From Neisseria mucosa (GTDB lineage Bacteria > Pseudomonadota > Gammaproteobacteria > Burkholderiales > Neisseriaceae), in NCBI RefSeq assembly GCF_013267835.1, contig NZ_CP053939.1, forward strand, positions 992,001 through 1,056,000: DNA of 64,000 bases. Reading direction: 5' to 3'. Positions 45,464 through 52,946 of this stretch are shown here, piece after piece. A program made the position numbers and the translations under genes. The first letter of the stretch is position 1; every line of letters starts with the position of its first letter. A model generated the notes under the pieces. The model made no database searches. It saw nothing but the letters and a program-made list of their open reading frames with translations, and was not told the DNA's origin.

Positions 45464-47008
45464 TTATTCTTCATCATCGCTATCGCTGATACTGATGCTG
45501 TGTTCCATTTTGCTTGGATGTACTTTTAAGCCGCCGCAACCTGATTTTTCGGCGGAGAGGCGGTTTAGATATGCTTCATCGATATCGCCGGTTTGATAAA
45601 CACCGTTGAAGCATGAAGAATCAAAGGATTCGATTTTGGGATTGAGCGCTTTGACTACTGCTTCCAAGTCTTCTAAATTTTGGAAGACGATACCGTCCGC
45701 GCCAATTTCGGCTGCGATTTCTGCCGCGCTGCGGCCGTTTGCAATCAGTTCTTCACGGGTCGGCATATCGATGCCGTACACATTCGGATAGCGTACTTCG
45801 GGAGCGGCAGAAGCGATATAGACTTTGCGTGCGCCTGCCGCGCGTACCATTTCAACGATTTCACGGCTGGTCGTACCGCGTACGATGGAATCATCCACCA
45901 ATAAAACGCTCTTGCCGTTAAACTCGGTTTCCATCGGGCTGAGTTTTTGGCGTACTGATTTTTTGCGTGTTGCCTGGCCGGGCATAATAAAGGTGCGGCC
46001 GATGTAGCGGTTTTTAATCAGACCTTCGCGGTAAGGTTTTTCGAGATGGACGGCAAGCTCCATCGCGCTGGGTCGGCTGGTATCGGGAATAGGCATAACA
46101 ACATCTATATCGTCGACAGGCAGCTCGCGTTTGATTTTTTCTGCCAAAGATACGCCCATATCCATACGGGACTGATAAACGGAAACGCCATCGATGACGG
46201 AGTCCGGGCGGGCAAAATAAACATATTCGAAAAGACAAGGGCTTAATTTGGCTTTATCGCTGCATTGACGGGAAATAATCGTGCCGTCAAAACCAATAAA
46301 TACGGCTTCGCCCGGCTGGATATCGCGTTCCAAATCATAGGCAAGCGCATTGAAGGCAACGGATTCGGAGGCAACGGCATAAGATTTTTTACCGGATTCG
46401 TCAATTTGCGAACCCAAAACCAACGGACGGATGCCGAAAGGATCTCGGAAAGCCAGCATACCGTATCCTGCAATCATGGCTACTACGCCGTATGCGCCGC
46501 GCACCAAACGGTGCACCTCGGAAACGGCGTTGAAAATATTGTCGATGGTGAGTTGGTAAGGAACTGTATTTTTAGAGACTTCGCGGCGCAATTCATGCGC
46601 GAATACATTGAGTAATACTTCGGAATCGGAGCTGGTATTAACATGGCGCAGGTGTTTGTTGCACACATTCTCATACAGCTCTTCGGTATTGGTCAGATTA
46701 CCATTATGTGCCAAAACAATGCCAAACGGAGAGCTGACATAGAAAGGCTGGGCCTCTGCACTGCTGCCTGCATTGCCGGCAGTCGGGTAGCGGACATGTG
46801 CGATGCCGGCATTACCTACCAAGTCGCGCATGTTTCGGGTACGGAACACTTCACGTACCATGCCTTTGCCTTTGTGCATATGAAACGTGCTGCCCTCTGC
46901 AGTCACAATGCCTGCCGCATCCTGACCACGATGCTGCAGCATCTGCAGACCGTCATACAGCAGCTGATTGACCGGCTCATGACTGACCAAACCTAATACA
47001 CCACACAT
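45464..47008 (-). CDS. purF: Amidophosphoribosyltransferase
   Basis: First committed step of purine synthesis: PRPP plus glutamine to phosphoribosylamine. Starts MCGVLGLVSH, so Met removal exposes the catalytic Cys of the Ntn-type glutaminase domain. The PRPP-binding loop VLLVDDSIVRGTTS is at about residues 370-383. The 514-residue length is normal; the tail (MEHSISISDSDDEE) is acidic and Neisseria-like. The cvpA gene lies just upstream, a common pairing in proteobacteria, with a hairpin between. Confidence 0.96.
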   Translation of the reverse strand: MCGVLGLVSHEPVNQLLYDGLQMLQHRGQDAAGIVTAEGSTFHMHKGKGMVREVFRTRNMRDLVGNAGIAHVRYPTAGNAGSSAEAQPFYVSSPFGIVLAHNGNLTNTEELYENVCNKHLRHVNTSSDSEVLLNVFAHELRREVSKNTVPYQLTIDNIFNAVSEVHRLVRGAYGVVAMIAGYGMLAFRDPFGIRPLVLGSQIDESGKKSYAVASESVAFNALAYDLERDIQPGEAVFIGFDGTIISRQCSDKAKLSPCLFEYVYFARPDSVIDGVSVYQSRMDMGVSLAEKIKRELPVDDIDVVMPIPDTSRPSAMELAVHLEKPYREGLIKNRYIGRTFIMPGQATRKKSVRQKLSPMETEFNGKSVLLVDDSIVRGTTSREIVEMVRAAGARKVYIASAAPEVRYPNVYGIDMPTREELIANGRSAAEIAAEIGADGIVFQNLEDLEAVVKALNPKIESFDSSCFNGVYQTGDIDEAYLNRLSAEKSGCGGLKVHPSKMEHSISISDSDDEE

Positions 47009-47119
47009 ATCGACACTCTCCGAGTTTTAGGGTTAAATGGGTAAGGCGTCATTATAAAATAATTTAGAGGAGTTTGCCCAAATTGTTGACAATATAATGC
47101 TACCTTCAGACAAATAAAA

Positions 47120-47157
47120 AACGGTTTCAAACGACCTTCAGGCCGTCTGAAACCGTT
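47120..47157 (-). terminator. Hairpin between cvpA and purF with a decayed DUS arm
   Basis: AACGGTTTCA (47120-47129) pairs with TGAAACCGTT (47148-47157); the pairing continues inward with G-U wobbles between an intact AG-DUS and the degenerate copy AAGGTCGTTTGAAA. Confidence 0.6.
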
Positions 47158-47161
47158 AACA

Positions 47162-47665
47162 TTAATCATCCGCTTCCTCATGCATATCTTCTTTTCTCGG
47201 CAGATACGGCATTGCGGCATCGGCAAGCGATTCAAAATACGGAATCGTATGGGAACTTTGCCACTCTTCCGTCTTCGGCAAATCGGTATGCGAAAAAACC
47301 ATCACAGCCAGTGTTACCAAAATCACACCTTTCACTGCACCGAATACGCCGCCAAGCAAACGGTTGATGCTTCCCAGACCAACGGCAGACACCAAACTGC
47401 TTAACAGCGACCGTGCCAGTTTTTGCAACAGCCACGCCAGAAAAAACACAGCGGCAAAACCCATGGCAACCGCCAAAGCATGCGGCTCAACCGATTTAAA
47501 AACCACATCGGCAAACGGCACGGCAAGCATTCTGGCTGCAATAAACGATCCCACCCATGCCACCATCGCCCCTGCTTCGGCAATAATCCCCCGTGTCAGC
47601 GAGATAATGATGCAGATGACGATGACGGCGGCAGCCAACAAATCGGCAACAGGCAAATTACTCAC
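47162..47665 (-). CDS. cvpA: CvpA family membrane protein
   Basis: Inner-membrane protein of 167 residues with four hydrophobic segments, named from colicin V production. Signatures ISLTRGIIAEAGAMVAWVGSF and INRLLGGVFGAVKGVILVTLAVMVFS are present. Its molecular role is not settled; links to envelope stress have been reported. The start overlaps the end of the SPOR-domain gene by 8 bp, so the two are cotranscribed. It precedes purF, as in many proteobacteria. Confidence 0.9.
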   Translation of the reverse strand: MSNLPVADLLAAAVIVICIIISLTRGIIAEAGAMVAWVGSFIAARMLAVPFADVVFKSVEPHALAVAMGFAAVFFLAWLLQKLARSLLSSLVSAVGLGSINRLLGGVFGAVKGVILVTLAVMVFSHTDLPKTEEWQSSHTIPYFESLADAAMPYLPRKEDMHEEADD

Positions 47666-50138: not shown

Positions 50139-50591
50139 TTAATCCATATCTGCCGCAAGTTCTGCTTTGTCTTCTTTTTCCCGACACCAGCGCGCCCATA
50201 CTTTCAGACGGCGGTAGGCATCACGGTCGGCCATATCGGGCAAGATGCAGTGTTTGACCATTTTTTCGTCAACATTCCATTGCAAAAACAAAGCATAAAC
50301 CGTCAACATACTGCTGTCTTGCAAAACCGCGCTTCTTCCCTCTTCCTCGCCATTCAAGTAAACCGTCGCACGGTATTGGCGGTCTATAATGATTTTTCTG
50401 ACCGCATTTCGAGTCTGAAAATTAACGCTGCGCCAAGCATAGGCAAAACTGCCGGCCAACGCCGCCAAACCCAGCCACATCATCCAGCCGTAAAACTCGG
50501 CAAGGCATAAGGCCAACGCCGAAAGGTGTAAGAAGACAATCAGAATTTTCAAAGAACGCGAGGGCTTTAAGGCCGTCTGAAAACTTCGCAC
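50139..50591 (-). CDS. YgfX/CptA-like membrane protein, 150 aa
   Basis: Two hydrophobic helices (about residues 15-32 and 36-51, IVFLHLSALALCLAEF and MMWLGLAALAGSFAYAW) are followed by a small beta-rich cytoplasmic domain ending in DRDAYRRLKVWARW. This layout resembles YgfX (CptA), whose role has been debated. The usual partner SdhE is absent. Start GTG at 50591 is four bases past the upstream stop; the first codons translate a DUS (FQTALK), so a later start is possible. A second DUS core lies near 50205. Confidence 0.65.
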   Translation of the reverse strand: MRSFQTALKPSRSLKILIVFLHLSALALCLAEFYGWMMWLGLAALAGSFAYAWRSVNFQTRNAVRKIIIDRQYRATVYLNGEEEGRSAVLQDSSMLTVYALFLQWNVDEKMVKHCILPDMADRDAYRRLKVWARWCREKEDKAELAADMD

Positions 50592-51018: not shown

Positions 51019-51747
51019 TTAATGTGTCATCACCTGTTGCAGGAACTGTTTGGCACGCTCGTGTTTCGGATTGGTAAAAAACTCTTCCGGCGTTTCGTCT
51101 TCCAGAATCTGGCCTTTATCGACAAAAATCACACGATCGGCGACTTCGCGTGCAAAACCCATTTCATGGGTTACACACATCATCGTCATGCCGCTTTCCG
51201 CCAAGTCTTTCATCACTTTTAATACTTCGCCGACCATTTCAGGGTCAAGCGCGGAAGTCGGCTCGTCAAACAACATCACGCGCGGCTCCATCGCCAAACC
51301 GCGTGCAATCGCCACACGCTGCTGCTGACCGCCGGAAAGCTGGCCGGGCAGCGCGTCTTTTTTATGCGCCAAGCCGACGCGTTCCAAAAGCTCCATTGCT
51401 TTCTTTTCCGCCTCTTCACGGCTTTGGTTTTTTACTTTCATCGGAGAAAGAATAATGTTCTCCAAGACAGTCAAATGCGGATACAGATTGAACCCTTGGA
51501 ACACAAAACCTACTTCTTCACGCACTTTGTTCAAATCGGTTTTCGGATCAGCAACATTGATGCCGTCCACCCAAATCTCGCCGCTTTCAATGCGCTCAAG
51601 TTGGTTTACCGTACGAATCAGCGTCGATTTGCCACTGCCTGAAGGGCCGCATACAACGACCACTTCGCCTTGTTTGACTTCCAGATTCACGCCGTTGATA
51701 ACGTGCAAATCTTTAAAATGTTTGTGTACATTTTTGAATTTAATCAT
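51019..51747 (-). CDS. Polar amino acid ABC transporter ATPase (GlnQ-like)
   Basis: ATPase subunit of an amino acid importer, 242 residues. Walker [10 protein letters not shown] (about 36-44), signature LSGGQQQR, Walker [14 protein letters not shown] and the switch His in CVTHEMGFA are complete. It is close to GlnQ/AatP types. No permease or binding protein gene is adjacent, so the partner genes are elsewhere. The ATG overlaps the stop of the preceding small gene by one base (TAATG), which suggests translational coupling. Confidence 0.92.
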
Positions 51748-52071
51748 TATTTCTTTCCAAACTGCCAAAATTTTCGGGGCCTGAGTTGCGCTTGTCGCTG
51801 CCAAAGTAAAGGAATGGCCGTTTCCAGCCAAAAGCGGCAACTGACTATGCCGCCTGAGATTTCGCCTTGATTGTACCGATTGACTTTAAATTGCTCTTCT
51901 CTATCGAGACGATGCCCGGTCAATACCCAAACTGCGCCGATAATTGCCGCTTCAAAACGGTGCCGCTCAGGCGGCATATTCTTACCTGAAAAATACTGCG
52001 CCAACTCGCACCACAAATATGAATCACCCAGAACCCCCCCATTGAATAGGAGGTTGCTTAAAAATTGCCAT
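51747..52071 (-). pseudogene. Small gene broken, or switched off, at a seven-G tract
   Basis: From ATG at 52071 the frame reads MAIFKQPPIQWGG and then stops at TGA after a run of seven G (52034-52040 on the plus strand). Removing one G (or adding two) joins it to the frame below, which runs on for about 90 more codons: GDSYLWCELAQYFSGK, MPPERHRFEAAIIGAVWVLTG and [14 protein letters not shown], to TAA at 51747. The joined product would have 107 residues, soluble, Trp-rich. I do not recognise it. It is coupled to the ABC ATPase through TAATG. Either a phase-variable gene in the off state or a decayed gene. Confidence 0.55.
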
Positions 52072-52078
52072 CACTGTT

Positions 52079-52858
52079 TCAGACGGCCTTTTGAACCAGA
52101 TAATTGCTCAATTCCACATATTTCTCAGCGGCAATGTGTTCTGCCCTGTCCTGCGGATTGATACCGACTGCCTGCAAATCATCATCGTCGGCAAGTTCCT
52201 TCAAATTATTGCGTATGGTTTTGCGGCGCTGATGGAAAGCCAGTTTCACCAGTTTGGCGAAGTGTTCAAAATCTTCCGCTTTACCGATGCGGTGTTTCAC
52301 CGGAATCATGCGCACAACGGCCGAATCTACTTTCGGCGCAGGATCAAAGGACTCGGGCGGTACTTCAATCAACATTTCCATATCGAAGAAATATTGCAGC
52401 ATCACGCCCAGACGACCATAGTCGTTGGTTTTCGGCTGCGCCACCATGCGTTCGACCACTTCTTTTTGCAGCATAAAGTGCATATCGATCACATCGTCCG
52501 CCACTTCGCTTAATCGGAACAAAAGCGGCGTGGAAATATTGTACGGCAGGTTGCCGACAATTTTTTTCTTGCCTTCAATGCTGTTGAAATCAAACTGCAA
52601 TACATCGCCTTCGTGTATCACCAATTTATCTGCAAACGGCAAGGTTTTCAGACGGCGTACGATGTCGCGGTCGATTTCGCAGACATGCAGGCAGTTGAGT
52701 TTTTTCGCCAAAGGCTCGGTAATGGCTGCCAAGCCCGGGCCGATTTCAATCACGATATCATCGGGCTGCGGTCTGACCGCGTTGACAATATCGCTAATAA
52801 TCCGCGTATCCTGCAAAAAATTCTGCCCGAAGCGTTTCCGGGCCTTATGTTCTTTCAT
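52079..52858 (-). CDS. rsmA: 16S rRNA (adenine1518-N6/adenine1519-N6)-dimethyltransferase
   Basis: KsgA, which dimethylates two adenines in the helix 45 loop during 30S maturation. The 259-residue protein has FGQNFLQD, the SAM motif [24 protein letters not shown] (the catalytic N-L-P-Y) and the [12 protein letters not shown] end. The start at 52858 follows GAAGAAAG. The last codons and stop are written by a DUS: QKAV then TGA inside AAGGCCGTCTGAA. An in-frame DUS core lies near 52646. Confidence 0.95.
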
Positions 52859-52946
52859 ATCTTTCTTCAAGCAAGCTGTTTAAGGCAGTATTGTAACTGA
52901 AACAAGCGTTTTTGTCGGCACGCTTTCAGACGGCATTTGCCTAATT

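Follow-up and report, generated by a model that had tools for sequence, protein, structure and literature searches.

The interval between ksgA and the gene of a GlnQ-like ABC transporter ATPase in Neisseria mucosa is probably the site of an optional single-gene cassette, whose 107-aa gene looks recently frameshifted at a short G run rather than equipped with a dedicated switch. This gene, found within a window of 64,000 nucleotides (the whole stretch of contig NZ_CP053939.1 that was analysed), is, judging from its reading frames, very probably off in this strain. In the course of events that we propose, the cassette would be exchanged among strains via recombination in the conserved flanks, the break would have arisen through ordinary slippage and a point change in a run that is not specially mutable, and it would be tolerated because the cell can dispense with the gene. 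Translation of the ATPase presumably starts from its own ribosome-binding site, whether or not the small gene is intact. A frame break that coincides with a short G run does not suffice for calling a switch, and the candidate for phase variation put forward in an earlier note is weakened. The probable cassette site beside ksgA and the unnamed protein family encoded there are the parts that deserve a second look.

Layout of the interrupted gene

The coordinates of the features are given in Table 1. On the minus strand, an ATG-started frame encodes the residues MAIFKQPPIQWGGSG and is closed by a TGA that closely follows a run of seven G. The frame described in the earlier note is real, with 15 residues, the 16 given there including the stop codon. 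The frame one base off, for which about 90 open codons ending in TAATG on the ATPase start had been described, is confirmed: it is open for 107 codons from stop to stop, contains an 89-aa TTG-started ORF (51747-52016, minus strand), and its TAA (51749-51747) overlaps the ATG of the ATPase (51747-51745). On this sequence evidence the two pieces belong to one small gene. The earlier proposal that they do so was right in that intact 107-aa homologues exist; of the tract lengths of six or nine G that were expected to join them, neither was seen, both intact relatives carrying five G followed by TTT.

Table 1. Positions of the features in the window; the names ksgA and DUS are presumed from the sequence.
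Feature	Position	Strand	Remarks
GlnQ-like ABC transporter ATPase	51019..51747	-	GlnQ model NF007027, 351.4 bits, under the cut-off of 379
3' piece of the small gene, 107-codon open frame and TAA	51747..52070	-	codons stop to stop 52070-51750
Cassette interval, ksgA stop to ATPase ATG	51748..52078	.	331 bp here
GGAAAG, putative Shine-Dalgarno-like site of the ATPase	51753..51758	-	from the sequence, assigned by eye
5' piece of the small gene	52024..52071	-	ATG at 52071, 15 codons, then TGA
G7 run, site of the frame break	52034..52040	-	C7 on the plus strand; G037 and G035 have G5-TTT
AG-DUS AGGCCGTCTGAA	52078..52089	-	spans the ksgA stop codon; cassette edge
ksgA (16S rRNA dimethyladenosine transferase)	52079..52870	-	cassette-site flank; matched in 45 of 46 genus genomes

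Intact homologues and the tract in relatives

The search for an intact 107-aa homologue that the earlier note had called for was successful. Among the 45 other genus genomes, two (G037 and G035) have such a homologue at the same position, in each case within a 119-codon open frame enclosing the whole gene. The 89-aa ORF of the window is 92% and 89% identical to the two copies, so that its frame is not open merely by accident. With our own genome included, the small gene is present in 3 of 46 genomes of the genus and in 3 of 83 of the family. In the protein database, nine matches to the 89-aa piece were obtained, the best being P0001, an intact protein of 107 aa whose first 12 residues are identical to those of the 15-codon piece of the window and whose 90% cluster has 763 members (taken as a count). 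The DNA comparison involves three copies of the small gene, one per species.

Other alleles of the database, some of which derive from metagenome assemblies, are also broken. By eye and from the protein letters alone, P0005 and P0072 lose their frame at codons other than that of the window, and P0004 and P0009 both begin with MGGLGDS and carry further frame breaks elsewhere. This MGGLGDS start suggests that in these two proteins the tract region is shifted by one base in the direction opposite to that of the window. If P0004 and P0009 are read correctly, all three frames at the tract spot may be present in nature, which could mean that the spot is mutable.

Length of the G runs and the hypothesis of a switch

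In the genome of 2.22 Mb, eleven runs of at least seven G were counted on both strands after merging of overlapping matches: eight G7, two G8 and one G9. Apart from the run at the break, eight of the ten sit in open frames of 309 to 940 codons, and the two others, a G8 and the G9, are not in long open frames. The in-frame G8 is located in the gene of the GTPase Era, which is essential, and runs of this length therefore occur where switching would hardly be tolerated. In the window, 4.3 runs of G or C of seven or more are expected under a dinucleotide Markov model and one is seen; since long runs are depleted, it is notable that the single one coincides with the frame break. The sole G9 of the genome (G000:C1:1635772-1635780, locus L060), around which the open frame does not exceed 90 codons, is by its length a better candidate for phase variation than the G7 next to ksgA.

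The earlier note had proposed that the small gene may be phase-variable, the slipping of the G run switching the small protein and possibly, through translational coupling, the ATPase. As in the poly-G phase-variable genes of Neisseria, the frameshift affects a small gene and falls on a G run close to its 5' end; it coincides exactly with the longest G run of the window, the frame being otherwise preserved, and the strongest hint of a mutable spot is the other length of the tract region implied by P0004 and P0009. A meningococcal survey counts homopolymers from 6 upwards (PMC5084427). In that survey, however, it is the tracts of at least 8 that mostly proved variable on resequencing (PMC5084427), and in the phasome table of the genus the ranges for G start at 9 (PMC5953494). 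By these figures, the G7 of the window is borderline and the G5 of the relatives is under both published thresholds. Unlike the poly-G phase-variable genes, the locus has a short tract, intact alleles with G5 and, among the three species' copies, no visible series of lengths. The runs of seven and eight G in open frames elsewhere in the genome, that of Era included, also speak against a switch, as do the further frame breaks of P0004 and P0009 and the breaks of P0005 and P0072 at other places. The 40-residue out-of-frame product of the window allele had no database match in a low-sensitivity search, a weak argument because small out-of-frame products are rarely predicted. Taken together, these data make a phase-variable gene quite unlikely; we hold the hypothesis at this level because the tract region of P0004 and P0009 is off in the opposite sense.

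Age of the break and constraint on the gene

A sequencing or assembly error at the homopolymer would also account for the break, and a one-base difference of homopolymer length in a single-contig genome is a typical error. Against such an error, the site differs from the relatives (other species) by one letter as well as in length, since both intact genomes read G5-TTT. Within the stretches aligned (approximately 30 kb for G037 and 19 kb for G035), the gap at 52034 is the only unpaired frame-changing one inside a well-conserved gene. Where other gaps in conserved stop-to-stop frames are not multiples of three, they either do not reach past the likely start codon or have a compensating gap close by; the frame 46996-47301, poorly conserved and with several gaps, was excluded from this count of genes. 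This comparison, together with the eight other G7-8 runs found in open frames, speaks against a generally error-prone assembly, and we regard a single error at the tract as rather unlikely.

The frame downstream of the break has accumulated no stops. For its 89-codon part, dN/dS is 0.25 relative to G037 and 0.22 relative to G035, against 0.35 between G037 and G035, and the differences among the copies fall mostly at third positions. The changes private to the lineage of the window are 4 nonsynonymous and 6 synonymous, compared with 3 and 2 in one of the intact relatives and 5 and 4 in the other; with these small numbers, the codon changes give no sign of relaxation on the lineage of the window. 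Because the downstream frame still looks conserved, the break looks recent. Among the five nearest genomes the dN of ksgA is 0.003-0.010, far lower than that of the small gene (0.037-0.044), which is therefore under only moderate constraint.

The absence of downstream stops, with changes that resemble those of the intact copies, would equally be expected if the 107-codon frame were still used, either from an internal start, be it the TTG at 52016 or an ATG further downstream, or through slippage during transcription of the G7, and a 49-aa database protein (P0007) does start, by eye, at the internal ATG. However, the most conserved stretch of the protein family spans the break, and a product begun internally would therefore lack the greater part of this stretch. 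Continued use of the 3' frame is highly improbable.

Expression of the ATPase

The GGAAAG motif lies 5 bases upstream of the ATG of the ATPase, within the last codons of the small gene. Moreover, in 28 of 46 loci of the genus (45 genomes) this ATG lies at most 44 bp past the ksgA stop; the interval values as computed fall 3 bases short of the ATG, and one of the 28 loci (L053) gives an uninterpretable overlap. Because a GGAAAG of its own precedes the ATPase, and because it comes straight after ksgA in these 28 loci, the earlier suggestion that it could be switched through coupling to the small gene appears unlikely. The broken allele may have a polar effect on the ATPase. A promoter scan gave 3 sites for 1.5 expected and a terminator scan 4 for 1.6 expected, and no Rfam family reached its gathering score between 51600 and 53000. 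Near the ATPase, a 150-aa protein (window 50139-50591, minus strand) matches the Pfam family Cpta_toxin (PF07254, E 1.3e-10).

The interval between ksgA and the ATPase as a probable cassette site

The flanks of the small gene belong to the conserved core, each of the 46 loci having an ATPase match near ksgA in the same orientation (with an overlap in L053 that is uninterpretable). Eighteen of the 46 loci have an interval of at least 107 bp, and the contents vary: (i) the 107-aa gene in G000, G035 and G037; (ii) in G014 and G036, a 221-aa protein, for which a scan of the G014 copy gave no Pfam match; (iii) a RelA_SpoT-type gene in six genomes (G005, G023, G039, G015, G008 and G016), five of which also hold a second, lipoprotein-like gene; (iv) nothing but lipoprotein-like genes or remnants, identified by eye, in G020, G009, G017 and G021, two of which were scanned and gave no Pfam match; (v) an IS1595-type transposase in G043; and (vi) short intervals with no recognised gene in G033 and G032. 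The RelA_SpoT-type assignment rests on Pfam for two copies, L020 being just under the cut-off of 27 with 26.9 bits and L025 over it with 29.5, and was made by eye for the others. Cassettes of this type are located at 2299-2868 of L020, 914-1483 of L025 and 2304-2810 of L030, and by eye the gene is shortened by a stop or a frame break in L017 and L030. A Sel1-like label given by eye to the 221-aa cassette was dropped, as Pfam finds nothing.

In the five closest genomes, DNA divergence in the flanks is 1.9-4.9%, and the contents switch sharply right past the ksgA stop and the DUS, and again right before the ATG of the ATPase. The ksgA stop is inside the uptake sequence in four of these five genomes, the sequence being altered in G036. 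Such an arrangement recalls the minimal mobile element (MME) of Neisseria, reportedly described by Saunders and Snyder in 2002 and by Snyder et al. in 2007. As in an MME, conserved core genes flank the ksgA site, and alternative cassettes or none stand between the same flanks. An exchange by transformation would be a further likeness, which the sharp junctions and the DUS at the edge only suggest; the IS1595-type transposase carried in the interval by one genome is a difference. On this sequence evidence, the interval is probably laid out like a neisserial minimal mobile element. Among the literature matches listed, none had ksgA and the MME term together.

An unnamed protein family

The 107-aa protein belongs to a sparse family of proteins of about 105 aa, of which at least 112 were found by profile search (the best 8000 candidates being scored). 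The family follows the pattern LFxxxPxxWGLRGDPYLW...HGGMSSGxVSxxFWxETAIPLLxxR, and both P0001 and the 3' frame of the window are members. In 89 aligned members, the majority consensus reads W-G-L-R-G-D-P-Y-L-W, H-G-G-M-S-S-G and F-W-x-x-T-A-I-P-L-L, and P8, W11, G12, R14, G15, D16, P17, L19 and W20 are invariant or nearly so. The close Neisseria copies differ from the rest of the family at the RGDP motif, where they have FLGDS or FLGNS. Our own genome matches the profile A2 with E 3.4e-30 over positions 18-109 of 114, partly by construction because A2 includes the close Neisseria proteins P0001-P0003.

The family has no name in any of the libraries searched, and the assignment of the 107-aa protein to it is new from the present analysis. 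On the 89 members, Pfam gave no shared match, each match concerning a single member with E 0.0026 or worse. For seven members, PADLOC and PHROGs gave no match and NCBIfam none to the family domain better than E 0.043. A sequence search of solved structures (PDB) gave one match only, at E 0.45. Apart from our own genome, members occur in 2 of 368 genomes in the class sample and in 6 of 397 in the phylum sample. Two different queries found them on 8 and 7 plasmid records, respectively, and the family extends from Neisseria to plasmids of Actinomycetota and Bacteroidota. No member was found in the phage collection and two viral contigs have one; a 21-base segment taken from the Neisseria gene has no exact match in the viral contigs.

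In four of the 16 fetched non-Neisseria loci, a biased selection since they were chosen as defence-like, the ORFs of the members and their neighbours were scanned: L086 has a retron-type reverse transcriptase together with subunits of type I restriction, L084 a KAP NTPase, and L085 and L072 have GmrSD-type enzymes. At these few loci the family lies near defence genes, and any function read from so biased a choice is a weak inference. A broader hypothesis, which we consider doubtful, is that the small protein belongs to an undescribed domain family travelling with anti-phage or stress-response genes, the ksgA-ATPase interval of Neisseria being a cassette site for them. If this were true, the broken allele described here would represent a strain that shed one such gene. 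The idea of an immunity protein, based on SuFu and ankyrin neighbours on the P. luteola plasmid, was not adopted, the loci being too few.

Several members have a particular architecture or context. P0107 joins the family domain to a macro-domain end, and according to annotation or Pfam the domain is fused to ankyrin repeats in L086 (3679-4641) and L074 (3392-4330). A 403-aa member on a viral contig (L072, 4986-6197) is located two genes downstream of a GmrSD-type enzyme. In a distant genome of the class, another interrupted member (L064/L065, G083:C17:31534-31811) gives two matches in different frames. Of the 12 other fetched loci outside Neisseria, those drawn on were read by annotation or by eye: an HNH endonuclease and a helicase lie near the member of the P. 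luteola locus, and the family gene stands beside ABC-F-like genes on a P. aeruginosa plasmid, in G579 and in G497; the locus of G631 resembles that of G804.
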